A DNA stretch of 64,000 nt from Algoriphagus antarcticus (GTDB lineage Bacteria > Bacteroidota > Bacteroidia > Cytophagales > Cyclobacteriaceae): NCBI RefSeq assembly GCF_002150685.1, contig NZ_MSSW01000001.1:1-64000 (forward strand), read 5' to 3'. A program made the position numbers and the translations under genes. The notes beneath the pieces were generated by a model. The model was not told the DNA's origin, ran no database searches, and was given only the letters and a program-made list of their open reading frames with translations. How positions within the stretch are numbered: the stretch's first letter is position 1; each line of letters opens with the position of its first letter. Positions 154 through 25,669 of the stretch are shown here, one piece after another.

Positions 154-336
154 ACTCTAAAATACAAAAAAAACTAAGAAAAACAAGCATAAATATCTAA
201 TAATCAATTGATTATAATAAATTAATCCCTGCAACGGTCTCAATCAGTGTATCAAGTGTACTCAAATTTATTTTGCTTGGTCAATACAAGCTCTAAGACG
301 AGTTTCCCTTTGGAAAAAGGAAGTTAAGACTGGGTT

Positions 337-3300
337 TTAACTTGTTTCACCATACCCCGCAAAATCAACCAAATACACGTAACCTATTGCCTTTGCTTCC
401 TCACACCATTGAGTTGAAAAGGATGTGCCATTTCTTTCATCTGACCTTAGGGAATCCTCATATGTCCAAACGACAACTTCGTTCACAACAAATCCAGAAA
501 CCCTGTTAAATTCTCTTATCCTACTTGCTGAGGAGGAAATTGATCCAACTATTTTATTCAGCTTTTCATGATGAAGCTCATAGAAAGTATATTGCCCACT
601 TACCCTTTTTTGAACAAAAACGGAATCGCCACTACTAATATGATTTTTAATGATAAGGTTTATTGACTTCCCTCTATAATTATCTTCCTTAGCCGCCCAA
701 CTTAAAATCAGCTTGTCCAAACCCTTGCCAGCACCAATCCCCATTCTCTTTTCCAAAGAATTCGGTAAAGTGTATTTTTCATTCTTGATTAGTCGATGCT
801 CTCTCATACCTTTAAAAACTAACAATCTATAGCGGGCTCTTGTGTAAGCTACATAAGTCACTCTCTTCTCCTCCTCGAAAATTTCTAATAGTTCGTCTTC
901 CTCCAATAGTAAAGTCTCTTTTAATGGTAGGCTTGAAAAAGATGGAGGAACTATGACACAATCAAACTCCAACCCCTTCACCTTGTGTATGGTGGAAAGT
1001 ACAATCTCAATCTCATCCGAATCATTAGAAAATCTCGGCTTGTACTTTTCATAAATCTTATAAAGTTGGCCATCATCCTTGCGGCACATTTCTATTAAAA
1101 AATCGAGAAGACCGGAATAGGTTATATTTTCTTCCTCACTCAAAAATTCCAAAATCAAAGATTGGAATACCCTGAGATAAAAGTGATTCCATTTCGGGAA
1201 AGCAGTTATGAGTCTGAGAACCTCTTTATTAATTTCAAGTTCAAATTTTGAACGAACCAATTCATCTTGCTTAGATTTAACGAAAAGCATTACCTCGTAA
1301 CACTCCCGAATCCGGAAAAACTCACATGGAAGAGCGCCTTGTAAACGAATTCTTGCTTCACTAATTCTCATTGACTTTAATCTTTGAAAACCGCGATAAA
1401 CCTCATCATTCTTCCTAAATAGGATAGCAATTTGTTTATAGGGTTTTTTATTGTTTCGCTCATCCAGCAAAAGCTTCAAGTGACCCCACCAAGTTTCATT
1501 ATCAGTAAGATTATCAAAAACCTGAACATAATCTTCCCTAAAATCCTCCGAAGGGACTCTTGTAGCTATTGGTATTAAGTCTTGCTGATCTGCAGGAAGA
1601 GTAAGTAGATCACTTGCGACACTCAGTATATTTGGATAGGATCTATGATTTTTATAAAGCTTAAAAATTGCAGGGCTAAAGATTTGATTAAAATTATCGT
1701 AATACGGCCATGGGCTTAAACTACCACCATCAGCCTTTCTGTCATATCCATATATACTTTGATTAGGATCTCCTATAATAAATAGACTTGAATTAGTCGA
1801 CTTTTGGAGTTCACTTAGTAATTGAACTCGGGTATTATTTATGTCCTGAAACTCATCGACGAGAATATGCTTCAAGCTACCCAGCTGATTAAATATTTCT
1901 CCAGGAGAATGCCTAAGGGTATCAAGCAGTATTGGTTCCCATTCATTAAAATCACGCCCCTCCAGTTTATTTAGACAATACTTTTTGGCAAGTCCATGGA
2001 AGGTGAAAATCTTTAACCTTTTAGAAAGTCTTCCATAACCCAATTCATTAAATAGTTTCCCTAATCGATCTTTCAATTCGGAAACCACTGCCCTGTTGTA
2101 GGCCAATACAAGAATTTCATCGGGATTTATACCAACATGATGTACAAGTTTGGCGACTCTAAGAGTAAGCGTGTGAGTCTTTCCAGAACCTGGACCTGCC
2201 ATCACATTGATATGTTGGTTAATAGCAGTGTCATAAATGTTTCTTTGCTCATCATTCAGCTTGTCTTCCTCAATTTGTATGGCATCTCCTCTCCATTTGA
2301 CCAGCAAAGGATCTTCGGGATCAAGTTCTTGCTGGATAGCATCCAACAAACTCTCAAGTGAATCGCAAGCAAAATACTTTTTAATAAATGTCTCCTGTTT
2401 AAACCTCAAAGCTGCATCATGTAAATCCTTGCCCTTTTGGTAGTTGGCGAGCACTTCTAATGCGATAAGTTTTAATTCCCTAACTTTTCTTGCCTCTTCA
2501 AACTCTTCGAAAACTTTCTTATCATCAGACTGCAAATCAGTCTCAACTACAGCTTCAATAGACTTCAGATAGAGCTCAATCCCAGATGGAAAAATACCGC
2601 CAGACTTACAATAACCCAAAATTGAAAGTATGAAAAGTAAGTCTTGCAAATAGTTGACATCTTCCTTCAGGTTAACGTCGTTAATCAAATCTGCCCAGTT
2701 AAAGGACTTTTCGTTCTTTTTAATGCTTGAATTAGAAATATGAAGAAGAAGGCGTGTCACATCATTTTCTAACTGCAATAGTTTCGTTGACCACTCCTCT
2801 ATTTTATGATACCCATTGAAAACTGATTGGTGAACGATAGCTTTTCTTGAACCATCACTTTTCTTCTCCATCTTACTTTCATGTCGGGTCTTCCCTAAAA
2901 TTCGGATTATGGTAAAAGCATGCTTCGCTCTTTTCTTAATGAGGTCTTTCTTGAAGTTTTGTAATTCTTTGGTTTTAGAGTCTGTCTTATCTTTTGTTGT
3001 CCATGGTAGAATATTAAACTCTACTTCCTCTGAAATGGCCTCATTCAACATATAATCCAGTTCATCACCTTCGAAAGTTTTCGAATCACTAAGAGGAACA
3101 CTCTTAAGTATGCTTCGAGCAAAAGAAAAAATAGCCTTTATTGCAGGGAATTTCTCATTTTGATTCTTAGTCTCAAGTGCATGCTTGATTTCATCTGCTC
3201 TCAGCCTTGTCGTTTCAATTAATACATGTTGGTTAATTTTAATCAGGTTTATTGAGTGAGCTTTGTATAGTGACTTATATAGATTTGATAAGCTAAGTTT

Positions 3301-6300
3301 TGTCTCATCTCTCAATGCTGTAAGAGATAATTGAATCAATTCCGGGTCTTCATCCCCATGTTGATCAGGCATAATTTGCTGTAATTTCACTATTGCTCTA
3401 CATACTTGAAGAGAATCTTCATCCTGGCACTGGCCAAGGTTATCTTGAAGATCGATTATTGATTCTTTAAAAAGCTCCAAGTGAGTAACTGTAGAGTACC
3501 CAAGTTTTATTCTTTCTAATTTCTCAAGCCAATGTAATGCGAGCCTAAAATTGATATTCAAAGACTCATCTGTCTTTCCTCTTTCGATAGATAGTAAATC
3601 AAGTGGAATAGCCGTTGGGTGCTCTAAATCAGGAATTAGAGGCTTAAATTTCTGAATATACTTCTCAACTATCCCCTTGGCTTCCTTCACCTCATGCCAA
3701 GAAATTCTACTTTCAAGTAATTGATCCTTTAATTGAGCGAAATCATCGTTTGAAGTAAGACAAAGCGTTTTTATAGAATTATTTTCATCGTAAAATCCTG
3801 CCTCATAGCGCAGTCTCTCGTTTCGACCTGCTCTACCAACTTCTTGTAGAAAATCTTCGAAGGTACTTGAAGGTGATAAATGAGCGACATAATGAATATT
3901 TGGAATGTCCATCCCCATCCCAAATGCTTTGGTAGAAAACAAGATGACGAGTTCTCCAGATTTATATTTATCATAGGTCTCTCTTCTATCTTCAGCATCC
4001 ATTCCTGCATGAAAGAAACCGACTTTATCTTTTAATCCACAATTGTCTCCAAATTCTTCTTTCAAATAATCTGGAAATAATAGAGCGCTTTCTTCAACTT
4101 TTTTTCGACTCTTGACGAAGATTATTGCACGGCTTTTCCTGGAATCGAAATTCCCGATCTTCAAATAGTTTGCTATTTCAGTGAGCCTATCCTCTTCTGC
4201 GACATTGTGTTTAAAGTCCATTCGAATATGATCTCGTACTGGGTTATAATTCTTTGGGGCACCTTCTACTACATCAAGATTCCCCATTATTCGGGTTATG
4301 TCCTTAGCAACCTGCTCTGAAATAGTTGCTGAAAACAAAAGTTTTTTGAGTTGAAATTTAGAAGAATATTCAGTCACCTTCTTAGCAGCATTCATATAAT
4401 CAGGCCTAAAATCTAAACCCCATTGTGATATGCAATGCGCTTCATCAAAAACAGCAAACTCAAGGCCGTTGTCAGAGATTACACGAGAGAGTAGCGCATT
4501 TTCAAATGATCTTACCCTAAATCTCTCAGGAGTAATAAATAGCATGGTAATCTCTCCTCCTGATATTCTGCGGTAAATGTCCTTAATTTCGACTGGGGAC
4601 TTATCCCCACTAATGAAATCTACATTGCTGAAAAAGCCTTTATCCCACAGTCCATCGACTTGATCTTGCATAAGCGCCCTTAATGGAACTATAACAATTG
4701 TCAATTTATTGGTGAAGCCAGATCTAAATAATGCTGGTGCTTGAAACAACACAGATTTACCAGCGCCAGTAGGAAGGGAGACTATTAGATCTTTCTTCGC
4801 TTGAAGAATCTCATCCAAATACAGATGTTGGTAATCTCGCCATTCATGTGGCTTCTCAGGATTTTCGTCTGCAAGAAAAATATATCGTAATAGGTCCTTT
4901 GCCTCATCTATACCAAATGGAATTTCAGAAGAAGGAGTATTGGAAGGGAAAAATTTTCTTACCAACTCATGGTCTGATTTGTATTTCTCTTCAGAACTCC
5001 AAACTTCAATAAGAGAAGAATGCATTTGAAAACTTCTTGCGACATCATAGTAGTCTGACAATCTTGAGTCTCCTAAAAAGAAATTTGATTTAGCATGATT
5101 ATCAATAATGGAGTAATAATAGAAATCAATTAAGGCTTTATGTGACTTCAATAAAGTAAAGGTGTCCACCATGCCAGTTCGAGCTTCATTGCTGTGCCCT
5201 TCAACTTCTGACTCATCCTTCTCTAAGACTTCAAACTTGATCATCTGAGATTTCTCTTGTAAGAGGAAGCTATCCCAAATAAAATCTATTGGACCAACAT
5301 AATTAATAGAAATAAAATCGATCAACTTAGCTATTGGAATCACCATCAGTTTCTTTTGAGACGAATAAGCATGAAGCAGCTCAAGTTGTCTAATCGTTGA
5401 TGACCGATTGTCAGGAACAAAAAACCCAATTGCTCTTGAATAGGACGACAATAAATCAACCTCTGAAGTATCGTTAACTATTAGAACCTTGGGATGATCT
5501 TCTTTAATATTTCGGATTCCCTGAAGTAGTTTAAACTGATAAACCCAATATTTATCTCTATAAAATGACTCAGCATTTACTCGATGAGCGTCAGCTAAAA
5601 ATCCAGATTTCCTTGAATCAGGCTTAATTACAAACCCATTCGTTTTGTTTGATTTCCTCTCTTTGAATTCTATTGAAATTATATTTTCAAATGAAAGAGA
5701 ACCGATTATACCGTCAATATCTTGATTGCAGAAAACTTTAAATTGAGATCGCCCGGTTTTATCGATCCAGATATTCTTAACATATTTTGGAACAAAGTCA
5801 ATGTGAAGTAATTCGAGATGTCTACTCTCAAGAGAAACATAGCTTTGACCTCCAGAAAGCTTTAACCAAATAGGCTCTTGCTTTGGAAATTTTTCAAAAA
5901 TAGTAGCAAAATCAAGATCTTGTCCAAGTTGAATTTTTGTAGTCAGTTGGGAAAGTTCTTTACACAAGACAACTGCCTGATAGCCCTCTAAAACCACTTG
6001 GGTTTCATCAATTAGCAAAAGCTCATCAAAAAATACTGCTACAGATTGCTGTTTTTCAATCAGTTCTTCTAAGGAGGAATATTCACATAGCTCATGAATT
6101 ATATCGTCAGGGATCTTAATTAGAATCGCAGTTGGAAGATTGGATAAATAAGGGATAGAACCTTTTTCTTCATTCCAACCAATATATCTTAACAATACGA
6201 TTTGAAGGAAATCATCTTTTATGAAATCCTGCTCCACCAATTCTCTTGAAAGAATCCACGATTTTCGTCTATTCCTTGAAACCAGATTTACGTTATAATG

Positions 6301-8478
6301 TGATGAGACGCTGTCCCACAATAATTCTGGCAGAATCACAATTACTTTTGAATCATTGACTAAAACTTCCTCTAAAGCATGACCTATCTCGCCTGAAAGT
6401 ATTTGGCTTCCTTGAGGCCTAAAGTACTGGTCAGATTGTTTCTCTGTATATTCTTCATCCACATAGTTAAGCCCAAATAATAGACATTTCTCTTCAATGA
6501 GCTCAGCTGCATATAGGGGTAATAATGGTCTTAATAACTGAAAGAGATCCTTTGAAGCAATCAACCTCGCTATTTGATTTAGAAAAAGCTGGTAGGTTTG
6601 CTTGGTATCATAAGCTGCAGTATGAGCCGTCATTAATCCGTAGCTCTTACGTCCTGGATTTAATAACATTTCCACTTCAAGGGTATCCCAAATGAAGTCT
6701 TTGAAGAATATGACATCGATTCCGTCTAAACGCTTGAGATCAAATTCTCTTATGTTTTGACCAATGATTAAACTACTGGACTTAATCAGATGAATTAAGT
6801 CTTTCAGGCCTACCTCTTCATTATTGTAATCACTGTGATCCTTAGCACCAGAATTCGAGATCCATGCAAATTCTTTTATCCCGCTATGATCAACTTCAAG
6901 GTCAAAGCAGACAAAATCAAGTTCACTTATCTCTGATTCTATTTTCTCAATTATCCTTTTCTGTTGTATAGGCAACAATGAGTTATGTCCCTCTAAATAT
7001 GAGATTGACTTTTCAAATGGGAAACCTTCTAAAAGTCTTACTCGATCCTCATCTATCGAGAGATCCTTTAGAATCCAATACATTTTATCTTCTGAGAAAC
7101 CGCTGATTACTTTTGAGTTAAAAAGCGCTACATAAACCTCAGGGTAGGCAGACTCAAAATTATCCTCTGTAAGTATAAGGCCAGGAAAAATTGATAGAAA
7201 AGGATTTATAAAATTTTTAAAATTTTCGACCCCTTTCATAGAGGTAAGAAAAATTGGCTTTTTAAGGAATTCATTAATTAAAAATGAAAGTCGGGAAGAA
7301 TTCCCTTCCTGTATTCGTAAGGCATTCAGAACCTCTATTTGATCCTGATACGACATAAATGGTAGAATATCCTCTGACCATATAGTATCACTATTTCCCT
7401 CACTTGGCAACCTCTCAATTACACCTTTAATCCAAAAACAAAAGGTGACTTTATTGAAGGTTTGATTTTTTACGTCATCAAAATACTCTTCCAAAAAAGG
7501 GAACACATAAAACTCACTGATCTGGTTTAGGATTTCATTCAATCCCTGAGAATTCAACTCATTAAAAATCAACTTATACAGCCTGAAAAAATCAGTATTC
7601 TTAGCCCCACAGGCTAATAGAAACCTATTTAGCCAAATTATTGAAGATCGGTTTTGTGTAACACTCTGTGACTGGTGAGTCAATACCTTTCTCGCCCATC
7701 CAATTTTATCTTTTTCTGGAGAGGAGAAATCATTGATTAAATCAACGCTCCATTGACCAGATGATTCATTTGCTTTGATAATATATATCCCTTCCTTAAA
7801 CCATTTCCGCAATGGGAATTCTTGAGTGATTGAAAAGCCAGAAATCGGAGACGCATACCCCTTAGCATTCCTTTCAAAGAGATAACAAGGAATTAAATTC
7901 GAGACTTTTATAGCATCCAGCTCTCCTCTCTTTTTCTTAGAATCAGTAGTGTTGAAAACTACTATATCATTTTCTGAGATGTTCGCTGTTAACAATGTGC
8001 TTGCATGAATAAAGCAATCCTTATCGTCCACGAAGCTATAAACATAGCCAAACCCCTTCTTCGTATCGTAGAACTTTACTCTCCCTACTTTGAGTTCCTC
8101 CCATTCTTTAGGAAAAAGATTTTTTAAAACACCACTTGGAACTTCAATAGCCTCAGAGTTTGATAGTGTTAATGAGGAGATTGGTTTATCTCTCGGCAGC
8201 ATAATCTTACCTAACACAGACAAACCTTTCAATGCCTCGTTAACAGGCCTTATAGCATCATGACGTTTCCCAATTGACAAATGGGAAGCCTCTTCTCTCT
8301 TCAAAGCGGAGCTTTCGATTTCCTTATTCAACAAGGCTACCTGAACCATATTGATTTTGGAATTGGGGTTATTTTCTATCTCATATCCAAATGAGAACAG
8401 TTTTTCAACAATTACAGCTGTTCCTACATTCAATTTTCGCGCAATCTGCCCCAAGCGCATCATTTTTTCCTCCGACAT
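337..8478 (-). CDS. Giant multidomain helicase-nuclease (IF2N-like, cold shock, DEDDh exonuclease, RecQ, UvrD)
   Basis: One uninterrupted 2713-codon frame carries five recognisable modules. Residues about 6-56 resemble the Bacteroidota IF-2 N-terminal domain (RLGQIARKLNVGTAVIVEKL). Residues 130-197 form a cold-shock domain (GRVKFYDTKKGFGYV, then CFIHAS). Residues 520-680 form a DEDDh exonuclease: FDLEVD near 524, IIGQNIREFDLKRL, and TAHTAAYD near 618. A RecQ-type SF2 helicase has PTGAGKS near 1236, DEAHCISQWG near 1343 and QEVGRAGRNER near 1543. A UvrD/Rep SF1 helicase has AGPGSGKTHT near 2094, DEFQD near 2207 and VAYTRAR near 2543. Residues 200-510 and 690-1220 are unassigned. All key motifs are intact, so the enzyme is probably active on nucleic acid. 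It follows mcrC by 69 bp and is probably the last gene of the defence operon. A role in phage or plasmid defence is inferred from context. A second start (codon 6, MMRLG) is possible. Confidence 0.85.
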   Translation of the reverse strand: MSEEKMMRLGQIARKLNVGTAVIVEKLFSFGYEIENNPNSKINMVQVALLNKEIESSALKREEASHLSIGKRHDAIRPVNEALKGLSVLGKIMLPRDKPISSLTLSNSEAIEVPSGVLKNLFPKEWEELKVGRVKFYDTKKGFGYVYSFVDDKDCFIHASTLLTANISENDIVVFNTTDSKKKRGELDAIKVSNLIPCYLFERNAKGYASPISGFSITQEFPLRKWFKEGIYIIKANESSGQWSVDLINDFSSPEKDKIGWARKVLTHQSQSVTQNRSSIIWLNRFLLACGAKNTDFFRLYKLIFNELNSQGLNEILNQISEFYVFPFLEEYFDDVKNQTFNKVTFCFWIKGVIERLPSEGNSDTIWSEDILPFMSYQDQIEVLNALRIQEGNSSRLSFLINEFLKKPIFLTSMKGVENFKNFINPFLSIFPGLILTEDNFESAYPEVYVALFNSKVISGFSEDKMYWILKDLSIDEDRVRLLEGFPFEKSISYLEGHNSLLPIQQKRIIEKIESEISELDFVCFDLEVDHSGIKEFAWISNSGAKDHSDYNNEEVGLKDLIHLIKSSSLIIGQNIREFDLKRLDGIDVIFFKDFIWDTLEVEMLLNPGRKSYGLMTAHTAAYDTKQTYQLFLNQIARLIASKDLFQLLRPLLPLYAAELIEEKCLLFGLNYVDEEYTEKQSDQYFRPQGSQILSGEIGHALEEVLVNDSKVIVILPELLWDSVSSHYNVNLVSRNRRKSWILSRELVEQDFIKDDFLQIVLLRYIGWNEEKGSIPYLSNLPTAILIKIPDDIIHELCEYSSLEELIEKQQSVAVFFDELLLIDETQVVLEGYQAVVLCKELSQLTTKIQLGQDLDFATIFEKFPKQEPIWLKLSGGQSYVSLESRHLELLHIDFVPKYVKNIWIDKTGRSQFKVFCNQDIDGIIGSLSFENIISIEFKERKSNKTNGFVIKPDSRKSGFLADAHRVNAESFYRDKYWVYQFKLLQGIRNIKEDHPKVLIVNDTSEVDLLSSYSRAIGFFVPDNRSSTIRQLELLHAYSSQKKLMVIPIAKLIDFISINYVGPIDFIWDSFLLQEKSQMIKFEVLEKDESEVEGHSNEARTGMVDTFTLLKSHKALIDFYYYSIIDNHAKSNFFLGDSRLSDYYDVARSFQMHSSLIEVWSSEEKYKSDHELVRKFFPSNTPSSEIPFGIDEAKDLLRYIFLADENPEKPHEWRDYQHLYLDEILQAKKDLIVSLPTGAGKSVLFQAPALFRSGFTNKLTIVIVPLRALMQDQVDGLWDKGFFSNVDFISGDKSPVEIKDIYRRISGGEITMLFITPERFRVRSFENALLSRVISDNGLEFAVFDEAHCISQWGLDFRPDYMNAAKKVTEYSSKFQLKKLLFSATISEQVAKDITRIMGNLDVVEGAPKNYNPVRDHIRMDFKHNVAEEDRLTEIANYLKIGNFDSRKSRAIIFVKSRKKVEESALLFPDYLKEEFGDNCGLKDKVGFFHAGMDAEDRRETYDKYKSGELVILFSTKAFGMGMDIPNIHYVAHLSPSSTFEDFLQEVGRAGRNERLRYEAGFYDENNSIKTLCLTSNDDFAQLKDQLLESRISWHEVKEAKGIVEKYIQKFKPLIPDLEHPTAIPLDLLSIERGKTDESLNINFRLALHWLEKLERIKLGYSTVTHLELFKESIIDLQDNLGQCQDEDSLQVCRAIVKLQQIMPDQHGDEDPELIQLSLTALRDETKLSLSNLYKSLYKAHSINLIKINQHVLIETTRLRADEIKHALETKNQNEKFPAIKAIFSFARSILKSVPLSDSKTFEGDELDYMLNEAISEEVEFNILPWTTKDKTDSKTKELQNFKKDLIKKRAKHAFTIIRILGKTRHESKMEKKSDGSRKAIVHQSVFNGYHKIEEWSTKLLQLENDVTRLLLHISNSSIKKNEKSFNWADLINDVNLKEDVNYLQDLLFILSILGYCKSGGIFPSGIELYLKSIEAVVETDLQSDDKKVFEEFEEARKVRELKLIALEVLANYQKGKDLHDAALRFKQETFIKKYFACDSLESLLDAIQQELDPEDPLLVKWRGDAIQIEEDKLNDEQRNIYDTAINQHINVMAGPGSGKTHTLTLRVAKLVHHVGINPDEILVLAYNRAVVSELKDRLGKLFNELGYGRLSKRLKIFTFHGLAKKYCLNKLEGRDFNEWEPILLDTLRHSPGEIFNQLGSLKHILVDEFQDINNTRVQLLSELQKSTNSSLFIIGDPNQSIYGYDRKADGGSLSPWPYYDNFNQIFSPAIFKLYKNHRSYPNILSVASDLLTLPADQQDLIPIATRVPSEDFREDYVQVFDNLTDNETWWGHLKLLLDERNNKKPYKQIAILFRKNDEVYRGFQRLKSMRISEARIRLQGALPCEFFRIRECYEVMLFVKSKQDELVRSKFELEINKEVLRLITAFPKWNHFYLRVFQSLILEFLSEEENITYSGLLDFLIEMCRKDDGQLYKIYEKYKPRFSNDSDEIEIVLSTIHKVKGLEFDCVIVPPSFSSLPLKETLLLEEDELLEIFEEEKRVTYVAYTRARYRLLVFKGMREHRLIKNEKYTLPNSLEKRMGIGAGKGLDKLILSWAAKEDNYRGKSINLIIKNHISSGDSVFVQKRVSGQYTFYELHHEKLNKIVGSISSSASRIREFNRVSGFVVNEVVVWTYEDSLRSDERNGTSFSTQWCEEAKAIGYVYLVDFAGYGETS

Positions 8479-8547
8479 TATTGGTACTGAATCAAATTAT
8501 TATTCATCTTTAATCTTTTTACTCTATAGTACTCACATCACAAATCC

Positions 8548-9885
8548 TTATAAATTGGAAAGTACGGTGTCAATAGTCGGCAACATCACCCCCAGCTTCC
8601 AAACCTTTTCATACTGATCGACTTCTTTATTTTTTGAAGTAAGTAGCTCAATTTTATCAGTCCCTGATTCTAAGTCAGGAAATATGATCACACAACCCAA
8701 GAGTAAATCTTTATTGGATAATTTAAGTCGATTTCGGATCTCTTTCAGCCTTGCATAGCCACTTACCTGACGAATATCAGCATGAAGGCCTTGATGACGT
8801 CTACCGATGTAACCTGGCTTATATTTCGCATCGATCACCAATGACTCTTCGTCACCATAGAATAGGTAATCCACTTCATTGCCATAGGTTCTTTCATGAT
8901 ACCTAATCTTTGACCCAAAACTGCTTTTTTTCAACAACTTCAACACATAGAGTTCAAACAGCTTACTCATATCAATCCAATAGGGTGGAGTAAGAATGGT
9001 TTCTTGATCCTGAATTGAATTAAGATTATAGCTAAACCGGTGAAGTATTAGCTTGGCTAATTCTATTGCTTTCTCATAGTTCTTATAAAAAGGATTGAAT
9101 TTGAAATACTTGATTTCATGAAGCTGGACTTCTTCTGACACCCCTTCAAAAGCCGGTTGGATAAAATTGAAAGTCTCCTGAAAGTAAGCCTCCGATTCCA
9201 ATCCTTTGAACGTGGAGAGATATCGTCGAATGAAGGTAAGCGTCTTTTTTAATAATCGGTTTTCCAGTCCATCTACTCCAAACTGCTCGTATTGGCAATA
9301 GGTGTTCAGGTTTTTGTTCTTGACCAGATTTTGCTTGATGGTCTGACTTACCAATACTTTTCCTTTGACCTTGGCATATAGGTTTCTTTCAACCTTATAA
9401 TAGCTTCTCTTTAATCCCTTTCTTACGATATCCTTTACCTGATTCAGGAATTGGATCATAATTAGAGGGGAGATCAAGTCTTGATTCTTTTGCAGCTGAA
9501 TCCATGGACTGTCAAACTTGATTTCAAAAAGTTCTTTGGTATGATCTCGGACATCAGGTTCTTCGAGTGCTTGGAACAGCATTTTCAATACATCAATCTG
9601 AACCAGCTCCTTTTCTTCCTGAGGTTTTTGCTCTTCTCCTGAATCTTCGTCAAACTTTGTATTGAGCTTAGACTCTACATAGACCCAATGATCGCCCACA
9701 TGGTCAGGAATCCAATCGGCACCAACATAGTAAGATGTCGAAATCCCAATCTTGCCTTCTAAAGATTTGAATGTCGCACATAAGCCGTCATTCCTCCGTT
9801 TTTTAAACAATATATCAGGGGGATTAACGCCCTCACAAAAGTCAAATAAACTGTAAACATGCTCACGTAATAAGAATGGTCTCAT
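8548..9885 (-). CDS. mcrC: McrC-like nuclease subunit of a type IV (McrBC) restriction system
   Basis: This 445-aa protein matches the McrC family (PF10117). The N-terminus MRPFLLREHVYSLFDFCEG is followed by an all-helical middle and a C-terminal PD-(D/E)xK nuclease core: EVDYLF near residue 334, a turn, then LVIDAKYK near 348, and ADIRQVSGYAR, the usual helix with conserved Gln and Tyr. McrC binds the McrB hexamer, stimulates GTP hydrolysis and cuts DNA carrying modified cytosine. The start codon overlaps the mcrB stop by 4 bp (ATGA), so translation is coupled. Family length is usually 350-450 aa, so the gene looks complete. Substrate modification cannot be told from sequence. Confidence 0.92.
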   Translation of the reverse strand: MRPFLLREHVYSLFDFCEGVNPPDILFKKRRNDGLCATFKSLEGKIGISTSYYVGADWIPDHVGDHWVYVESKLNTKFDEDSGEEQKPQEEKELVQIDVLKMLFQALEEPDVRDHTKELFEIKFDSPWIQLQKNQDLISPLIMIQFLNQVKDIVRKGLKRSYYKVERNLYAKVKGKVLVSQTIKQNLVKNKNLNTYCQYEQFGVDGLENRLLKKTLTFIRRYLSTFKGLESEAYFQETFNFIQPAFEGVSEEVQLHEIKYFKFNPFYKNYEKAIELAKLILHRFSYNLNSIQDQETILTPPYWIDMSKLFELYVLKLLKKSSFGSKIRYHERTYGNEVDYLFYGDEESLVIDAKYKPGYIGRRHQGLHADIRQVSGYARLKEIRNRLKLSNKDLLLGCVIIFPDLESGTDKIELLTSKNKEVDQYEKVWKLGVMLPTIDTVLSNL

Positions 9886-11816
9886 AGCTCATTCAACTCC
9901 TTAAGTACCATTTGTACTGGATCATCAGAACTCTCTTCATTACTTCTTAGAATCCCATCCTTTACATATTCTTTTAGGAGCGGGAGCACCTCGTATTTCA
10001 TTTTAATCTTTATCTCATTATTCCCCTCTTCGCCATTCTTGGAAGTCAGAAAATAACTATGTCCGATCCAGACATCTTCCGGCCTAAAGTCAGATAGCAA
10101 TGTTGAGGCTCGCTTAGGTGATGCTTGCGATTGAATTACTTCGGTATAATTAGCAACAAACAGTTTAGAAACTTTCTCAAACATTACTTTCGCCAACTCA
10201 TTTTTGATTGGATCGATAATAGGTAACACATCCACAAAAGCAAACCTTCGTCTAATAGCATAATCGATATGACCTACGCTTCGGTCTGCTGTGTTCATAG
10301 TTCCAATGACATAGAGATTGGGAGGTATGATCATTTTCCGATCTCCATTTACGGCATATATGGATTCTACTGCATCACCACGGTATTCTAAGCCATAAAT
10401 CAACTCTCCTAAAACCGATGGAAGATTTGCGCGATTAATTTCATCAATAATCAACACAAATGATTTTAAATCCAATTTCTCCTGATTCTGAACTTCTAAA
10501 GACTTCCCTTTCATGAAGGCTTTGAACAAGTCCAAAACTCTCAATGTATAACTCGCATGAGATCTTGCCAAAGAAGATATTTGCGTGTTTTCAGTGACGT
10601 CTTTTCTGGTGGTAGCATCACTTTTATAAAGTGTGGCAATATCAGAGAAGAGTGAGCGAAGTCCCGTGTTCTGCTTCCAATTATCTCCAGTGTAGCGAAC
10701 AGCATCCGCCTCAACTTGAAAAAGATAAGTGCTTGTATCTTTAAGAAATAATTTACCATCATTATCCTCAATTTGAAGAGCCAATTCTTCTTTGAACTCT
10801 TTCAAATAGCGCTCCAGTAACTTTTCCTGTGAGACCTGTTCTGCAGACTTTAAAGAATCCTGATAATTATGAAGGGCTTTTTCAGCCAATTCAGCAAAAA
10901 TCTTATTTACCGATTTATAAGTAGGAACTCCATCTTCAGTCTCAACTACAATTCCACGTACAAAATCTTCATATGCGTACGCTGGATGGAATTGGATAAG
11001 CTTTACTTTATCTGATTCCAGATTCTCAAAAATGTATTTCGACAATGCCGCGGTGTAAGGATCTGAACCATTTTTTTGACCAGTTATCCAAAGTCTTTTT
11101 GCAAATGCTTTTTGAATATCCTTGAATGAAATAGGATAATCGCTTTTCTCATTTTCAAGCTGTAACTGAATTTTAGAATCAGTTATTTCTAAAATTGTGT
11201 ATTTGGTATAGTTAGATGAACTGGGAACTACGAGTCCCACCCTTAGCGTACTGCGGATGTCATGAATTGAAATTTCATGTTTTATGGTCATCTCTTTAGC
11301 GATCTCCTTCGCCAGTCGAGTCTTCCCAGTTCCTGGAGGGCCTTGAAGGATGATTTGCTTTTTGTATTCTAAAAGTGATTTCGCCTGAGTTTGCATATGG
11401 GTGTTTGTGTAAAGTGAATACCATTTCTGAATAAATTCGCTTGTATTGGCAGAGGCAAAAGTCACAGTTGGGAAGATCCCATTAACCTTCCTTCCAATTT
11501 TTTCTTGAACTTGACTATCAAAAAACTGAAGCACCTTTATTTTTCTTCGATTCTCAAACCAATCGAATTTCAAATCAGGATTAGGAGTTTGCTCTGCTTC
11601 CCCAATTACTTCCACCAAGGCTAAAGGACCTTTACTCCGAACAAGAACAATGTCCCCGATTTTCAGAATAGTCCTGAACTGATTTAAGTAAACCCAACCA
11701 TCAGCCCATTCATCCATTCCAATACAATTAGTATCCTCAAGGATTTTTTTGACTTTTTCCGGAGGAAATTCAGATTGGTTATTTGGATGTAATTGGATGT
11801 GCCAAAAGTTTTTCAT
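9882..11816 (-). CDS. mcrB: McrB-like AAA+ GTPase of a type IV restriction system
   Basis: A 644-aa AAA+ protein with a distinct N-terminal domain. Residues 1-100 (FWHIQLHPNN, then GDIVLVRSKGPLALVEVIGE) look like an EVE/PUA-type fold, the kind of domain that reads modified bases in other McrB proteins. The motor has Walker A LQGPPGTGKT near 157, Walker B LIIDEINRANLP near 453 and the McrB-specific MNTADRSVG near 505, followed by the arginine-rich IDYAIRRRFAF. About 90 residues are inserted after Walker A (DIRSTLRVGLVV onward), as in other long McrB proteins. The gene starts 2 bp after the upstream membrane-protein gene and overlaps mcrC by 4 bp. GTP as substrate is family knowledge, not seen here. 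Confidence 0.92.
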   Translation of the reverse strand: MKNFWHIQLHPNNQSEFPPEKVKKILEDTNCIGMDEWADGWVYLNQFRTILKIGDIVLVRSKGPLALVEVIGEAEQTPNPDLKFDWFENRRKIKVLQFFDSQVQEKIGRKVNGIFPTVTFASANTSEFIQKWYSLYTNTHMQTQAKSLLEYKKQIILQGPPGTGKTRLAKEIAKEMTIKHEISIHDIRSTLRVGLVVPSSSNYTKYTILEITDSKIQLQLENEKSDYPISFKDIQKAFAKRLWITGQKNGSDPYTAALSKYIFENLESDKVKLIQFHPAYAYEDFVRGIVVETEDGVPTYKSVNKIFAELAEKALHNYQDSLKSAEQVSQEKLLERYLKEFKEELALQIEDNDGKLFLKDTSTYLFQVEADAVRYTGDNWKQNTGLRSLFSDIATLYKSDATTRKDVTENTQISSLARSHASYTLRVLDLFKAFMKGKSLEVQNQEKLDLKSFVLIIDEINRANLPSVLGELIYGLEYRGDAVESIYAVNGDRKMIIPPNLYVIGTMNTADRSVGHIDYAIRRRFAFVDVLPIIDPIKNELAKVMFEKVSKLFVANYTEVIQSQASPKRASTLLSDFRPEDVWIGHSYFLTSKNGEEGNNEIKIKMKYEVLPLLKEYVKDGILRSNEESSDDPVQMVLKELNEL

Positions 11817-11818
11817 TG

Positions 11819-13486: not shown

Positions 13487-13523
13487 ATTAATTAATCATT
13501 ATAAAGTACATTTACATCTGGCA

Positions 13524-14623: not shown

Positions 14624-14730
14624 ATAGTATATTTAATTTAAAACCTTCAATACCCAAATAATCATACTCGCTATTAAATAGCGAGCAATTTCTATTTTAA
14701 ACACTCATCTTGTTAAAGTAATTAAGCAAA

Positions 14731-15999: not shown

Positions 16000-16032
16000 A
16001 TAGACTCTGTTTATAAATCAATTACAGAATAG

Positions 16033-19000
16033 TTAGTTTATCTTCATAACCCTATACCCCATTCCCCCAAACTCAAACTTATCATCCTCCATTTTTCCCA
16101 ACATAGCCTCTGAAAGAGCTGATTTTAACAGTATTAGCTTGTAGCCGTCTGGGGTGAAGGTTCCTTTCTCACCGGATTCTTGGATGATGTATTTCATTTC
16201 CTTGGCGTCGGTGCTGCGGATGGTGACCTTGGAACCTACACCTATTTTCTGGGTAGAAGGCTGGGAGAACAGGGGTGTGGTAGCTTCAAACAAGCTTGGC
16301 TGTGGACTTAGTTTAGGCGGCTTGGGCTTAGTTTCTTTAGGCCCTTTCCCCTTCACATACCATTTCGATACTTCCTCCGGCACAAGATTCCCTTTTTGCT
16401 CGTAGAATGCCTCAATATCCTTCTGCTTTTGAAGACCTTGCTTGGCTTCTTCTTCAAAGTACTGATGATTCAACTCCAGTAAGCGCTTAAGGATTTCTTT
16501 TCGGGCATCAGGATGTATTGTGTACCGGACACGGTCATTTTCAGGAAGGTAATCCACTTCATAAAAATTATGGAGAAGTTCTATATCCGACCAACCATAT
16601 GCTTCCAGAACAGCTTGGTCCATTTCTTTGTGGAGTTCTCTAAGTCGGTGGATTCCTTGAAGTGCATCAATGCAAGTTTGTTGGTCTTGTTTACTTCTTA
16701 CCTCAATATCGACAGAAGTCATAAATTCCAAATGAAACAGATTATATAGTTTAGTTAAGCCCAAGTGGATCTTTTCCATGATATTTGACCTGAGTAAAAA
16801 ATATATAGATCCTATGTTATCAAGCCTCTGAGAGATACTGGGATTAGTGATTTTTGGAAAAGGGAAAGTTTCAAAGCAATCTGAAGCGGCATATCTTCTA
16901 TCACCTTTCATGGAAGATGAATAATTCCATGCCCAATATTCATGGAGAGCTGATTGAATAATTGAATAATGCACAAAGTCCTTGAATGTGAGAATAACTG
17001 TAGCATCAGAAAAAACTGTATTAGGATTATAAAAATGAGGGGCATGCGTTTTCGTTACTCTTGTTAAAACTAAAACCCTGTCCATTAGAGCAATTGTTTG
17101 ATAGAGCTCTTTGCGCATCCTTAAAAATTGCCACCAATATTTAGCTCCCCTATCACCTTTCATAGAGATTCTCTCTGGTTTCACAAATTGTTCTACTATT
17201 CTATAACAATCTGGAAACTTACGAGCCTGTTCTTCAGTCCAGTCAAAAAAATTAATAACCCATCGGCTTGGACTTTGATCAGGGCGGTTATTTAGGTCTT
17301 CTCCATTTAGGTATGGGAAGAGTACTTGCATGTTACGAGGGTCTTTAGCAATTAATGATGTTGCTTCCTCTGGTTCCAAAACGAATCCCTTACCAAGTAT
17401 TATACTACCTTGAAAGCTCTTGTTTTGATTGGAATTTAGCTTAAATGGATTTCCTTTATTTTCAGAATCATCCAAATATGGAGTAATTGTTTTCACTTTC
17501 TTACCCCCCAAAATAAAATCCCCCTTCCAATCTTGTTTAGTAATAGTAACTAAAGCCACTTCCACAGCAGCAACACCGGGCCATTTCATACTTTTTACCG
17601 CAAAATTTATTGTGCCATTTTGCTTTGCAATTACGTCCAATCCATCTTCCCTGGCTTTTCCTTGAGCAATAGTATTGGTAGAAATCAAGGATTGAAAACC
17701 TCCTGATTTAATGATGTCAAATGATCGGCGAAAGAAATAGGTGACTAAGTCAACTGCTCCAATCGGACTATACTGATATTTGATAAATTCCAGAAAGCTA
17801 TCTCCAAAGTTCCCACTTAACTTCTGACCTCCTAAAAACGGTGGATTACCTAAAATACAATCAAACCCACCTTCCTGAAATCCTTCGGCACCCTCAGGAT
17901 TTTTGCTTGTCGCAAAAACCTCCGGGAACTCCAGAAAGTAGTGGAAAAAGCCATTTTCTTGAGCCAATACCGCCGCCTTAGCAGGTGGCATACCAGTAGG
18001 AACTGTTTTTTCTCTTAGATATTTCCTGTAAGTCCCATCTGTACAGATATAGCCTTTGTTTTCAGATGTCTTGGGAACAAAGAACTGAGCTACTTGCATA
18101 TCTGCCAGACTCTTCAGTCTGGAATAGTTAGTCCCTGTATTGAGTTCTGCGAATTTCTTTTGCTTCGCTTCTATCTCCTCTGGAGTACGTTCAGGAAGAT
18201 TTTTAAAGAGTTGAAATTGCTCGATGGCTTTGCTGACTGATTCGTTAACATTATCGCTGTACTCCAAGCTGATTTGATCCTTTTGCTTTAGCTCTTCTCT
18301 ATTTCTATTTCGGAATTGGGTAGCAATGGCCTTATCATCTCCAGGAAGTGCTTTGAAAGCTTCTTCTGCAATTCCTTTTTCCAGCTCCTCCTTATGAGCA
18401 AGCCCGACGATGGCATCGCCGCATTTGATCTTATGATCCAGGAAGTTTAGCGGTTCTCCGGGACTATGTGCTTCCAGCCATAGTGCTACTTTACACAGCT
18501 CTACCGCCAGCGGATTCTTATCTACTCCGTAGATGCACTCTCGGATTACATCCCGCACAGCCTGTCTCATGGCAGTAGGAGTGGGCTGGTCTTCACCAGT
18601 TCTGGCCTTGGCCAGTTCGGTGCCTATCCTGCGTGCTGCTGAAAGTAGAATATGTCCACTACCGCAGGATATATCCGCTACTTTGATGGCAAGCAGTGCC
18701 CTTTCTTGGAGTACTTTTTTGGGAGCCTGATTGGAAGGGACTTTCAGTCTTTCTTCCGGTTTTTCCAGACAATCCTGAATGATATACTCCAAAGAATGCT
18801 TGATCAGCGGACGTACCAGTTCTTCTGGCGTATAGTGAGATCCTGAAGAAGATCGATCCGTTCCCTGCACAAAGCCAAAGTTTGGTGAGGTATCCAATTC
18901 TGTAAATACTGGTTCGAATTCCAGCAGCCCTTGATAGACTGATCCGAATTCTTCCACATCCAGATCCCCATAGTTTACTTTTACCAATTGCTTACGTTGC

Positions 19001-20211
19001 TCATCTTCGAAATAGCAGAGTCGGTAGATCACATAGAGCAAGTCTTCATTCTTCAGTTTGCTATGGCTTATTATTCCCAAAGCTCCAGAATGAAAAATCC
19101 CGGAGCCCAGCGGCTTGATCCCAAGCTTTTCACCATACTTGCCAGACTCAAAAAGCTGAAAGGTAATTTTGAGATTCTCCCACAGATCATGTTTAGCACC
19201 TTCAATAAATATCCTTCGCAATGCCAGGTTTCTTACCCGACCCATGCTGTAATAGTCATAATAGATTTTTCGAAGCTTAGAGAGTGCTTCATCTTGTTTT
19301 TCTGGATATACCAAGCCACGATCCTCCGTAACCAACAAGAATAAAAAGCGGTAAATCAGTCGAAGCAGGAAAAGATAGTATTGCTTTCCGGAGAGTTCTC
19401 CATTCTGTACCATCTCCCGTAGCTCTGTATTTTCCGGATGTTTGAGAAAGCCATTTCCAAGACGCTTGATAGAGCTTTCTACTGCTTCTGATAGCTTTTC
19501 ACGAATTCGTGTTCCTGAAGCCAGTGACTCCTGATGATAGTATTCTATAAATGATTCCTCTCCCGCATTCTTCTCCTTTGGCATTCGGCTGGCATGAAGA
19601 ATTCGATAGAGTATCGCGAAGTCTGCGAAGAGTTCTTCCTCCATCATTTTCTCCAGGTCAAACTCCAGATAGGTCAGTCTTACCAATCGAGTTGCATCCC
19701 TCAATAATCTTAACTGCTTGCCATTCGTGACTAAGGCATATAGGTAATCATCTGTCTTATTCAGGTATTCCTGCAACAATCCATGAGGAGAAAGTCGAGG
19801 GCCTGAGGTTTCACGACGCTTATCCAAGCTGTCATGAATTCCCATGATATGGACAGGAAAGCCTTCAAGGTTACTGGATCTGTGGCTGATGGCATAAGTT
19901 TTCCCATCGATGTTTGCAGCATTGGACTTATCCAGTTCATAACCCAAGGTGGACAGAAAGGGAAGCATCCAGAAGTTTCGTGTTTCGGAAGTGCCGCTTT
20001 CATTTTCAGGAATACGTTCCTTACGAAATTTGAAAGCCTGCCAATATCCTCTGGCAGAAGCCCAAGCCAATCCGACTTCATCCCGGACTTTTGTTCCCTT
20101 AATCAGACCAAAATCCACCGAAGTTTGGTACTTGATATCCTCGGATACCAGTTTGTCCAGAATCTCTCCTGATACGATATTACCCTGTATGTTTATGCTT
20201 GGGAAGTTCAT
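16033..20211 (-). CDS. Large Eco57I-type DNA adenine methyltransferase, DISARM DrmMI-like
   Basis: The 1392-aa protein has the N6-adenine methyltransferase core. Motif I is VADISCGSGHILL near residue 514 and motif IV is NPPF near 788 inside CILGNPPFLGGQKLS. HYTPEELVRPLIKHSLEYI precedes motif I, as in type IIG/ISP enzymes. A long N-terminal helical region (1-460) and a C-terminal region past 960 (VLVLTRVTKTHAPHF and onward) probably hold the target-recognition part. No obvious PD-(D/E)xK nuclease motif was found at the N-terminus, so it looks like a pure methylase. Size and architecture fit the class 1 DISARM methylase DrmMI, which marks self DNA. A stand-alone type IIG or ISP-like enzyme is the main alternative. 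AbiH lies between it and the helicase genes it probably serves. Confidence 0.87.
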   Translation of the reverse strand: MNFPSINIQGNIVSGEILDKLVSEDIKYQTSVDFGLIKGTKVRDEVGLAWASARGYWQAFKFRKERIPENESGTSETRNFWMLPFLSTLGYELDKSNAANIDGKTYAISHRSSNLEGFPVHIMGIHDSLDKRRETSGPRLSPHGLLQEYLNKTDDYLYALVTNGKQLRLLRDATRLVRLTYLEFDLEKMMEEELFADFAILYRILHASRMPKEKNAGEESFIEYYHQESLASGTRIREKLSEAVESSIKRLGNGFLKHPENTELREMVQNGELSGKQYYLFLLRLIYRFLFLLVTEDRGLVYPEKQDEALSKLRKIYYDYYSMGRVRNLALRRIFIEGAKHDLWENLKITFQLFESGKYGEKLGIKPLGSGIFHSGALGIISHSKLKNEDLLYVIYRLCYFEDEQRKQLVKVNYGDLDVEEFGSVYQGLLEFEPVFTELDTSPNFGFVQGTDRSSSGSHYTPEELVRPLIKHSLEYIIQDCLEKPEERLKVPSNQAPKKVLQERALLAIKVADISCGSGHILLSAARRIGTELAKARTGEDQPTPTAMRQAVRDVIRECIYGVDKNPLAVELCKVALWLEAHSPGEPLNFLDHKIKCGDAIVGLAHKEELEKGIAEEAFKALPGDDKAIATQFRNRNREELKQKDQISLEYSDNVNESVSKAIEQFQLFKNLPERTPEEIEAKQKKFAELNTGTNYSRLKSLADMQVAQFFVPKTSENKGYICTDGTYRKYLREKTVPTGMPPAKAAVLAQENGFFHYFLEFPEVFATSKNPEGAEGFQEGGFDCILGNPPFLGGQKLSGNFGDSFLEFIKYQYSPIGAVDLVTYFFRRSFDIIKSGGFQSLISTNTIAQGKAREDGLDVIAKQNGTINFAVKSMKWPGVAAVEVALVTITKQDWKGDFILGGKKVKTITPYLDDSENKGNPFKLNSNQNKSFQGSIILGKGFVLEPEEATSLIAKDPRNMQVLFPYLNGEDLNNRPDQSPSRWVINFFDWTEEQARKFPDCYRIVEQFVKPERISMKGDRGAKYWWQFLRMRKELYQTIALMDRVLVLTRVTKTHAPHFYNPNTVFSDATVILTFKDFVHYSIIQSALHEYWAWNYSSSMKGDRRYAASDCFETFPFPKITNPSISQRLDNIGSIYFLLRSNIMEKIHLGLTKLYNLFHLEFMTSVDIEVRSKQDQQTCIDALQGIHRLRELHKEMDQAVLEAYGWSDIELLHNFYEVDYLPENDRVRYTIHPDARKEILKRLLELNHQYFEEEAKQGLQKQKDIEAFYEQKGNLVPEEVSKWYVKGKGPKETKPKPPKLSPQPSLFEATTPLFSQPSTQKIGVGSKVTIRSTDAKEMKYIIQESGEKGTFTPDGYKLILLKSALSEAMLGKMEDDKFEFGGMGYRVMKIN

Positions 20212-22840: not shown

Positions 22841-25669
22841 TCAATCAATTGCAAATTGTACGGGTGTCGGCAGGAATACATATACTCCCAAAATATCCGG
22901 CGGTAAAATAGGATGAACTGCTTCATAGCGTTTTCCTCCAACCAGCTTCTTAAATCTACCGTGCGCTTCCACCAACTGAACTGATCTTTCTTCAGCAATC
23001 GCCACAAACTCATCCAGTCTTCCTTGAAATAGCGACATCTGATGATTGAAGGTGTCTATTTGTCTTTCTTTGGATAAGTTTTGAGCACTCTCAGCTTCGA
23101 AGAGTAATTTCTTACACGATGCATAGTCCAAAATATCTCCTCCCTTTGAGAGTCCTTCAAAGCCCCAGAGGTACATCTCTTCTGAGATGTTTTCGACTTT
23201 ACTTTGGACCTCTTTAATCACATTTCTAACTCGAAACTGAATGATGGTAGTTTGGGTAGTGACAGAAGAAGTTTGAATCACTGCAGCACGTGCCACTTGG
23301 TCGAAATCAGCTTTTTGCTCGAAAGCCAGGGAAAGTAAATATTGACACAATTGCTCCGTAAACTTATGATTCCTTCCAATGTACCTATAGCCCTCAGGGG
23401 TAGGGGAATGGAAGCTTACTCGGTAATCTGACTTAGTCCCCAAAGCTTCCCTAAGGTGGGGAGGAAGGTTTTGAAGAAGAATTCGATAACCGTTTGCTTC
23501 TTTTTGATGGCTTCCTTTCAGATGGACTATTCCGTTGAGCACCAAAGTCTCCACAGATTGGATATCTCCAATCGCCTCATCTACTTTTCTCAGATCATCT
23601 TCGATCTCTTCTTGAGGGACTGACATGTGGGCAAAAATGCTTCGTAGGTTTTGGGCTTTAAGCTTCGCTGCTTCCAGCTCTCTGGTAATGATGGATTCTT
23701 GATAATCAGAGCCAAAATCAAGACTGATTTGAGATTTTTCTAAGGCCTTTTGCGGATCCAGAAGCACTTCGTTCAGGACTGCATCCATGATGGATCGATT
23801 ATCCTCACCGAGACTGATGGATACGCCTGTGGATTTCTGTATATCCCTCACTTTCCTAATCAATACTTTTAATACAATAGCATCGATTGGATTATCTTCC
23901 CCCCAAAGCAACCATGTTTTTACCTCAGGACTATTTTGTCCATAACGATCCACCCTTCCTTCCCGCTGTTCCAAACGATTGGGATTCCAGGGCAAATCAT
24001 AGTGAAGCACCGCATTAAAGCCTTTTTGTAAATTGATTCCTTCGCTCAAACAATCTGTAGCAATCAACACTCGTTTGTCGGATTTCTCCATCTCCTCAAT
24101 TCGCTCTCTTCGTTGCTCATCTGGAAGCTCGGAAGTAATCGCTTGCACTTCTATGGATTTTGGCAGATTAGCCTTGAATATTTCCTCCAAGTACTTGGCT
24201 GTTGCTATGTATTTACAGAATATGATCGGATGATACCCTTCCTTAATCCAATCCTTTACAATGTTCAAAGCATTTGCTGCTTTTTTATCTTGCTTAAGGT
24301 TTGCCAATTCTTCTAAATCTGCAGCAAGGCTTTTCAAAATCTCGATTTCAGATATTTCCAACCCTGCTTGATCCAATAGCTCCATTTGGGTAGAATCGGT
24401 ATCTTCTTCAATTCTTTCTATAACGGGATTTTCTTCATAGATTATTTCTGGAGCATCCCCTTCACTTCGCTGAATCTTTCCTTTTAGCATTTCCAATCCA
24501 GCTGCGGGTGAAGACATTATCCCTCTTAGTAATGCAAGAGCGGCCCAGTACTTACCCTTTAATCCCTTATGCTGCTCAGCTCCTTTAGTCAGTCCTCTTG
24601 CAAAAGCCTGAGCTTCTCGAAAGAAGTGGATGTAGTCTGGAGATAGTTTATAGCCAATTTCTTTAGTGTCTCGCTCAGGAAAAGGCGTCTCCTCTGATAG
24701 CCACTTCCTAATCTGTTCTCTTTTCCGTTGGATAAAATACTTGGAAAGTTCTTCCCGCTTTTTTTGATCGAAATCCGACAGATTGATTTTTTCAAATTCT
24801 GGTTTTAGTAAACCCAAGAGGGATTGAAATTCTTCATCTTTTCCACTATGAGGAGTGGCAGTAAGTAACAGAATCTGTCTTTTCTGATCTTTCGCAAGAT
24901 CATGAAGTAAGTGATATCGCTGTTGTTGTGAAGGGGAGCTTGCACCTGCAGGTTTGGTAGCTGTATGCGCTTCATCGACGATCACAAACTCTGGGCAATC
25001 CGTCAAAAAAATGGGCTTTCTGCGGTCGCTTTTGATATAATCAATCGATATGACTTGATAGGGGAATACCTTGAAAATACTTTCTGAGCCTGTAAGTTTT
25101 CGCTCCAAAGAAGAAACTGTGCTACTTCGAATTATTTCAGCGTCTATATCCAATTTGTCTTTTAGTTCCTTATGCCACTGCTCACACAAATGAGGCTGGC
25201 ATATCACAGCAAATCGTTTGACTTCACCTCGCTCTATTTGTTCTCTCAGGATAATCAGCGCTTCGATTGTCTTACCAATCCCTACATCATCAGCAATCAA
25301 AAGCCGAACTACTTCTTGCTTGAGAGCCATCACCAAAGGGACGATTTGATAGGATCTTGGTCGGAAGGAAAGTTTACCCATGGCCCGAAAAGGGCCACTG
25401 GCATTTCGAAAAGATAGGCGAGAAGCTTCAAACAGAAGTTTGGCTGTCTCAAAATCTCCCAAATCTTCACTTTCAGGCCTTGGGAAAGAAGCTTCTTTCC
25501 ATTGGTCCTCTGGAACCATTAATGGCAAAAATATTCCGGTAGCTTCATCATCTGAGCCTCCCAGTGGCTTGACTTTTAAAATATCCTGATCGTCAGTTGG
25601 CAATACAACCCATTCCCTTCCACGAAGAGAAATCAGCTTACCGGGGGATGGTTTTTCTTTTGTGATCAT
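22841..25669 (-). CDS. SNF2-family helicase, DISARM DrmD-like
   Basis: The 942-aa protein has the full SNF2/SF2 motor: RSYQIVPLVMALK (Q region), LLIADDVGIGKT near residue 120-127, VIVDEAHTA near 226, LLLTATPHSG, and in the second lobe VLIATDCLSEGINLQ, DLPWNPNRLEQREGRVDRYGQ near 560. The opening block (PGKLISLRGREWVVLP) is the small N-terminal beta domain seen in DrmD and other defence-associated SNF2 proteins. The enzyme would translocate on double-stranded DNA using ATP. It overlaps the preceding 1744-aa helicase gene by 4 bp and the next gene starts 1 bp after its stop, so the three form one translational unit. A DrmD assignment is from architecture and neighbours. Confidence 0.9.
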   Translation of the reverse strand: MITKEKPSPGKLISLRGREWVVLPTDDQDILKVKPLGGSDDEATGIFLPLMVPEDQWKEASFPRPESEDLGDFETAKLLFEASRLSFRNASGPFRAMGKLSFRPRSYQIVPLVMALKQEVVRLLIADDVGIGKTIEALIILREQIERGEVKRFAVICQPHLCEQWHKELKDKLDIDAEIIRSSTVSSLERKLTGSESIFKVFPYQVISIDYIKSDRRKPIFLTDCPEFVIVDEAHTATKPAGASSPSQQQRYHLLHDLAKDQKRQILLLTATPHSGKDEEFQSLLGLLKPEFEKINLSDFDQKKREELSKYFIQRKREQIRKWLSEETPFPERDTKEIGYKLSPDYIHFFREAQAFARGLTKGAEQHKGLKGKYWAALALLRGIMSSPAAGLEMLKGKIQRSEGDAPEIIYEENPVIERIEEDTDSTQMELLDQAGLEISEIEILKSLAADLEELANLKQDKKAANALNIVKDWIKEGYHPIIFCKYIATAKYLEEIFKANLPKSIEVQAITSELPDEQRRERIEEMEKSDKRVLIATDCLSEGINLQKGFNAVLHYDLPWNPNRLEQREGRVDRYGQNSPEVKTWLLWGEDNPIDAIVLKVLIRKVRDIQKSTGVSISLGEDNRSIMDAVLNEVLLDPQKALEKSQISLDFGSDYQESIITRELEAAKLKAQNLRSIFAHMSVPQEEIEDDLRKVDEAIGDIQSVETLVLNGIVHLKGSHQKEANGYRILLQNLPPHLREALGTKSDYRVSFHSPTPEGYRYIGRNHKFTEQLCQYLLSLAFEQKADFDQVARAAVIQTSSVTTQTTIIQFRVRNVIKEVQSKVENISEEMYLWGFEGLSKGGDILDYASCKKLLFEAESAQNLSKERQIDTFNHQMSLFQGRLDEFVAIAEERSVQLVEAHGRFKKLVGGKRYEAVHPILPPDILGVYVFLPTPVQFAID

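Follow-up and report, generated by a model that had tools for sequence, protein, structure and literature searches.

Helicase-nucleases acting in defence are already known as a kind. The gene analysed here, referred to as the giant, was found at 337..8478 on the minus strand of a 64,000-nt stretch of Algoriphagus antarcticus DNA (the window), which starts at base 1 of its contig (NZ_MSSW01000001.1; host genome 5.9 Mb). It encodes 2713 amino acids (aa), in which N-terminal nucleic-acid-binding modules, a DEDDh 3'-5' exonuclease, a predicted degenerate DinG/XPD-like helicase module and RecQ- and UvrD-type helicases follow each other in one chain. The layout would be new within this known kind, though not categorically new, and the protein is probably an antiviral machine of a type not yet described.

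Comparison with described systems

In RecBCD and AddAB a dead helicase module reads the strand. With their motors, nuclease and dead module as reader, these enzymes appear, by analogy only, closest in logic to the mechanism proposed for the giant. The giant differs from them in being one chain, in combining superfamily 2 (SF2) and superfamily 1 (SF1) motors and in carrying a DEDDh nuclease in place of the RecB-type one. WRN-type exonuclease-RecQ proteins resemble the giant in having a DEDD exonuclease before RecQ, whereas the giant has extra modules and UvrD and is located in bacterial islands. ExoDinG is the Gram-positive DinG with an N-terminal DEDDh exonuclease, and the same succession of DEDDh and a DinG/XPD-like fold is predicted for residues 519-1161 of the giant. 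In contrast to ExoDinG, the giant has lost Walker A and DEAH and has additional RecQ, UvrD and N-terminal OB/IF2N modules. A 2025 survey of DinG-like proteins distinguished ten subgroups, with no mention of RecQ anywhere in its text (PMC11981726).

In type II ARMADA, the ArmD protein carries a RelE-like domain in fusion with a GajB-like UvrD helicase (PMC12458937). Like the giant, it joins a UvrD-type helicase to an RNA-related N-terminal part beside a set of YprA, SNF2 and methyltransferase genes; unlike the giant, it has no described RecQ, exonuclease, cold-shock domain (CSD) or DinG part, and the words RecQ and AbiH are absent from the accessible text of that paper. CnuH of CoCoNuT, likewise found near McrBC, joins RNA-binding modules of the OB type to an SF1 helicase, but it is UPF1-like, and neither RecQ nor UvrD is mentioned in the accessible main text (PMC11090510). 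The combination found in the giant is covered by no PADLOC, NCBIfam or Pfam model among the matches listed. No paper describing it was found in the open literature (PMC), closed journals and most preprints being outside this coverage. The original prediction, made from the sequence alone, had likewise known no named system.

Domain architecture and active sites

That prediction had proposed a single unbroken frame, fusing IF2N-like, cold-shock, DEDDh, RecQ and UvrD modules with intact catalytic motifs, directly behind mcrC. The frame was confirmed as ATG-started and on the minus strand, which had not been specified, and all five modules were recovered, 69 bp behind mcrC. The DinG/XPD-like region, the C-terminal domain, the close match of the N-terminus to host IF2, the RecQ split and the ARMADA-like island had gone unnoticed. 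The closest relative, from A. aquimarinus, is of the same length and 76% identical. Seven near full-length relatives (2705-2721 aa, 45-76% identity across aligned spans) exclude a chance origin of the fusion, and relatives with the same fusion in other genera rule out an assembly artefact. The giant is also not a housekeeping recQ or uvrD, since the host genome contains elsewhere two full-length recQ genes above the family cut-off and one pcrA-like gene.

The protein starts with the IF2N module (residues 1-76, 8251..8478), to which Pfam gave a weak IF2_N match at 7-51 (E 0.017, below cut-off). It is followed by the CSD (residues 127-196, 7891..8100; Pfam at 132-184, E 6e-6, bits slightly below cut-off). 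The beta-rich stretch of residues 197-254 (7717..7890) is possibly a second OB fold, as suggested by predicted strands and Foldseek tandem-CSD matches, and residues 255-518 (6925..7716) are all-helical in the predicted secondary structure.

The exonuclease (residues 519-645, 6544..6924) was not reported by Pfam. A family profile of 11 sequences matched the 3'-5' exonuclease of Staphylococcus aureus DinG (PDB 8zef, E 3.6e-5) and PolC; the nuclease is of the DinG type instead of the proofreading type named in the original prediction. The five active-site residues D526, E528, D580, H619 and D624 were complete in 75 of 77 rows of the alignment. The exceptions were the gene fragment L018 and L020, which reads DEDYT in this alignment.

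The RecQ-type SF2 helicase (residues 1196-1600, 3679..4893) and the UvrD-type SF1 helicase (residues 2063-2580, 739..2292) are separated by a linker predicted to be mostly helical (residues 1601-2062, 2293..3678). Both cores and the CSD were recognised by Pfam/NCBIfam, with Pfam DEAD and Helicase_C at 1215-1553 and UvrD domains at 2074-2554. RecQ motifs I, II and VI had no substitution in any aligned row (gaps in 1-2 rows). The checked UvrD positions were unsubstituted except one glutamate, replaced by Q in 12 of 104 rows; both alignments also contain some neighbouring helicases. The motifs and the fold of a UvrD-type helicase are present, and this part aligns structurally with the AddA and RecB folds. 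Helicases of the RecQ and UvrD types belong to different superfamilies but are both 3'-5' motors.

Neither helicase scored as an orthologue of its namesake: TIGR01389 (RecQ) gave 209.7 bits over the helicase core only, against a cut-off of 640 bits, and TIGR01073 (UvrD/PcrA) gave 117.7 bits against 911 bits. Among the matches listed, no NCBIfam model reached its cut-off for the giant, and no PADLOC model spanned more than one of its helicases, the best 25 of 63 PADLOC matches falling in the RecQ or UvrD part. The chain ends with a family C-terminal domain (residues 2581-2713 with the stop codon, 337..738; domain proper about 2600-2713), for which no related match was found in PDB (best E 0.52, unrelated).

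Predicted degenerate DinG/XPD-like module

For the 550 aa between the exonuclease and RecQ (residues 646-1195, 4894..6543), a DinG/XPD-like helicase fold was predicted by AlphaFold2, Foldseek and VIA-align; the input alignments for structure prediction had 59 and 54 rows of those available. Walker A and DEAH were missing in 73 of 73 members in the motif scan. According to the models, the module is probably the dead helicase part of an ExoDinG and would keep a single-strand-binding fold without ATPase.

N-terminal part and its relation to host IF2

Residues 1-76 were 80% identical to the N-terminus of the host's own IF2, the match beginning at both start codons. At the DNA level, the identity was 69% over 227 ungapped bases. 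Synonymous sites are saturated (pS 0.90) while dN is 0.18, which indicates that the copy was not made recently and has since been conserved as an IF2-like sequence. The IF2 N-terminus of A. aquimarinus is the same as the host's across the first 79 residues; the IF2N part of its giant shows only 50% identity to that of the window giant and 56% identity to the IF2 of A. aquimarinus itself. Outside this part, the two Algoriphagus giants are 57-92% identical by domain, except for the linker (36%). A tree of 19 IF2N sequences was weak and mostly unresolved.

An IF2-like domain was detected by the IF2 profile in 8 of 70 family N-termini. The Pfam scan at E 0.05, covering 73 N-terminal pieces (the window and 72 of 73 listed), gave CSD in 32, OB_RNB in 5, S1 in 3 and TOTE-type S1/CSD in 2. 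We read the N-terminal part as a swappable nucleic-acid sensor, mostly of RNA type. In six gut Bacteroidales loci, a separate gene for an S1-domain protein lies directly upstream of the giant (e.g. L060:6224-6784), and in 13 loci an SF1-like helicase gene, mostly of about 600-700 aa, lies close downstream (e.g. L060:14804-16681). The S1 protein, giant and SF1-like helicase of gut Bacteroidales perhaps form a three-gene system. Two tandem giants (3-5300 and 5510-16147) were observed in Anaerobiospirillum L101, and the complete one (3545 aa) has S1 domains at its start in place of the CSD.

Distribution of the family

The scan of 84,980 species genomes resulted in 103 confirmed relatives, of which 80 were kept, representing 79 distinct loci (Bacteroidota 51, Pseudomonadota 19, others or unclassified 9). 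The relatives were found through two RecQ-lobe patterns; therefore, the counts are lower bounds and biased towards these patterns. With five plasmid loci, the set comprised 84 loci, some of them truncated. RecQ lobes were found in 84, UvrD in 82 and DEDDh in 77, with constant spacing, and the order DEDDh, RecQ, UvrD is common to the GTDB and plasmid loci. The family domain scan gave no DEDDh match in three Anaerobiospirillum loci.

With the DinG-like profile, 2 of 72 genomes from the genus gave a match, and in a sample of 395 genomes from the phylum A. antarcticus itself was the only one. This patchiness makes the giant an accessory gene. In a quick-search tree of 82 loci and the window, the copies of Bacillota, Campylobacterota and Succinivibrionaceae were nested among Bacteroidota, which suggests horizontal transfer.

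Family members or relatives occur on plasmids of Hymenobacter, Rhodobacter, Deinococcus and Cereibacter, those of Deinococcus and Cereibacter including a shorter DEDDh-RecQ-UvrD relative without the CSD and DinG part. Among viral contigs, no relative was detected by the single-protein scan, and the alignment scan gave 11 loci, ten of which match the RecQ region only. A frame of 1647 aa on an IMG/VR viral contig (L113:9086-14029) matches the RecQ and UvrD parts. The plasmid copies and this viral frame would fit a giant belonging to mobile elements and aiding the replication or transfer of plasmids or islands. We consider this very unlikely, given the restriction to RecQ of nearly all viral matches, the position of the window copy among restriction genes and the conserved DEDDh active site.

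A second, shorter DEDDh-RecQ-UvrD gene is present in the host genome (contig C131, L190:7270-12207); a single in-frame TGA interrupts it where the RecA1 and RecA2 lobes of RecQ meet. About 3 kb upstream of it, an AlbA-like open reading frame (ORF) was observed. Rhodobacter CZR27, with frames of 550, 134 and 1774 aa, was considered as an ancestral three-gene form and rejected: it resembles a broken fused Paracoccaceae gene, as part of the fused L083 protein recurs in the 134-aa piece.

Defence neighbourhood

The neighbourhood was surveyed with the window genes as queries in 1.10 Mb of flanks and in 60 random 18-kb windows (1.08 Mb, 13 Bacteroidota genomes). Homologues of McrBC or of the ARMADA core flanked 17 of the 84 loci, against 0 of the 60 random windows (p 9e-5; 5e-4 with one locus for each of 41 clusters). 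With type I restriction genes and AlbA added, the counts were 31/84 and 1/60, the type I marker having been chosen only after the loci had been seen. McrBC was found at 9 of the 84 loci, type I restriction-modification (RM) at 13 and the ARMADA core at 9. The scan of immediate neighbours covered 101 of 121, those left out by hand being mostly short ORFs and second chains of split giants.

The arrangement varies by clade. Operon-like cases are L067 (methyltransferase, mcrB, mcrC, giant, YprA), L063 and L092, where YprA precedes the giant, and L083, where SNF2, methyltransferase and YprA follow it. In both Algoriphagus, mcrBC lies directly upstream, and in the likewise operon-like L046, L047, L084 and L088 a split giant lies inside a type I restriction operon, between hsdM/hsdS and hsdR. 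The last two arrangements would be expected if the giant were not autonomous but a subunit or helper clearing DNA cut by McrBC, the ARMADA set or a type I restriction enzyme; with a neighbour that changes from clade to clade and a type I marker added post hoc, we regard this as rather unlikely.

The excess of such neighbours supports the original prediction in placing the giant with defence genes. From neighbours and distribution, a defence role of the giant is probable. The more specific reading is given about an even chance: the giant would be an accessory effector, spread by horizontal transfer, that turns its helicases and nuclease against invaders and senses its target through a part binding RNA or single-stranded DNA (ssDNA). 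Several points weigh against it. No sought defence marker was found within about 10 kb at 53 of 84 loci, flanks being short at many loci. Four of the 17 marker loci (L018, L027, L032, L069) rest on matches below 70 bits, and the control windows came only from Bacteroidota, with 28 of 79 GTDB loci outside this phylum or unclassified. For the DinG-like region, the sequence search of PDB gave only an unrelated best match (E 1.1), that of Pfam nothing consistent, and in the viral library other SF2 folds scored E-values similar to DinG. No published activity or phage protection was found for the giant in the open literature, and RecQ, UvrD and DEDDh proteins all also act in DNA repair.

The giant could also be an accessory repair enzyme, similar to ExoDinG or WRN-type exonuclease-RecQ and carried by chance on genomic islands. 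The repair character of both helicases and the many marker-free loci are in line with this, as is the reported role of S. aureus ExoDinG in DNA cross-link repair (PMC12345164, from its accessible text). Patchy presence, the excess of restriction and ARMADA neighbours, and the intact separate recQ and pcrA-like genes of the same genome speak against a repair role, and the repair explanation is judged improbable.

Natural split within RecQ

At 19 loci, 18 from Flavobacteriia or Hymenobacter and one unclassified, the gene is cut between the RecA1 and RecA2 lobes of RecQ, resulting in two chains. The original prediction had suggested action without partners, whereas these loci spread the modules over a pair of proteins. 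The paired genes overlap by 1-23 nt and the second starts with ATG (in L064, the ATG at the stop was taken, not the longest frame). The short overlaps suggest coupled translation, and programmed frameshifting may be an alternative. All but two of the Bacteroidota split loci belong to one supported clade, and the Flavobacterium L025 copy is fused. The tree count needs three changes; therefore, the split arose repeatedly or was reversed.

Island of the window

Twelve co-directional genes, no more than 139 bases apart, span 30900 to 337, and the giant is the last of them. Their order is YprA/DruE-like helicase (25666..30900, PADLOC DruE E 1e-88), SNF2-type DpdE/DrmD/BrxH-like helicase (22841..25669, PADLOC), AlbA-type gene, abiH, DrmMI/PglX-like methyltransferase (16033..20211, PADLOC DrmMI E 4e-231), unknown, rusA-like, two unknown, mcrB-like AAA ATPase (9882..11816, Pfam AAA_5 E 2e-15), mcrC (8548..9885, Pfam McrBC PF10117 E 4e-28) and giant, all on the minus strand. 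According to the accessible text of its description, ARMADA is defined by a trio of YprA-like helicase, BrxHII-like helicase and PglX-like methyltransferase (PMC12458937). Genes 1, 2 and 5 match this trio in order by PADLOC, the AlbA-type gene and abiH separating the SNF2-type helicase gene from that of the methyltransferase. The island resembles an ARMADA array of type I order plus McrBC. For the YprA protein, Pfam reported three families at E 1e-3; DUF1998/MZB was not one of them, and no C-terminal Vsr family was matched at this threshold.

The AlbA-type frame (21307-23013) overlaps the SNF2 gene by 173 bases, and its true start is therefore probably further in. The C-terminal 70 aa of the methyltransferase gave a weak GreA/GreB C-terminal match (E 2e-4). 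A 10-pair stem-loop at 14665-14687 separates the gene at 14731 from the rusA-like gene and might terminate the upstream transcript; terminator-like sites were not in excess in positions 1-18000 (11 found, 11.2 expected by chance).

Proposed mechanism and significance

In the proposed mechanism, the small N-terminal RNA/ssDNA-binding modules (the IF2N copy, the CSD and perhaps a second OB fold) would recognise or dock on the target, and the DEDDh exonuclease would trim 3' ends. The DinG-like module, its ATPase lost, would probably act as a passive single-strand channel or reader by analogy with the dead helicase subunits of RecBCD/AddAB, and RecQ and UvrD would provide 3'-5' unwinding. Such a single-chain machine could open and degrade replication or transcription intermediates of phages and plasmids (forks, R-loops, ssDNA).

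Tentatively, and with more doubt than conviction, the family may be a widespread unnamed defence system: a RecBCD-like single-chain destroyer (nuclease-competent, motor-dead ExoDinG with RecQ and UvrD). Exchangeable sensors at its N-terminus (CSD, S1 or an IF2N derived from the host's initiation factor) would tie it to invader RNA, R-loops or translating transcripts. In a marine and soil Bacteroidota clade it would work as a split motor, with RecQ completed only when the two chains meet.

A single chain that combines an exonuclease with three helicase folds, one of them dead, would be new in its layout; the giant would also be a compact test case for a dead helicase module guiding live ones. 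A RecQ motor naturally divided between its RecA lobes offers a ready experiment on enzyme assembly or control. The copy of the host IF2 N-terminus, kept while synonymous sites became saturated, would allow a direct test of whether translation initiation and defence are linked.
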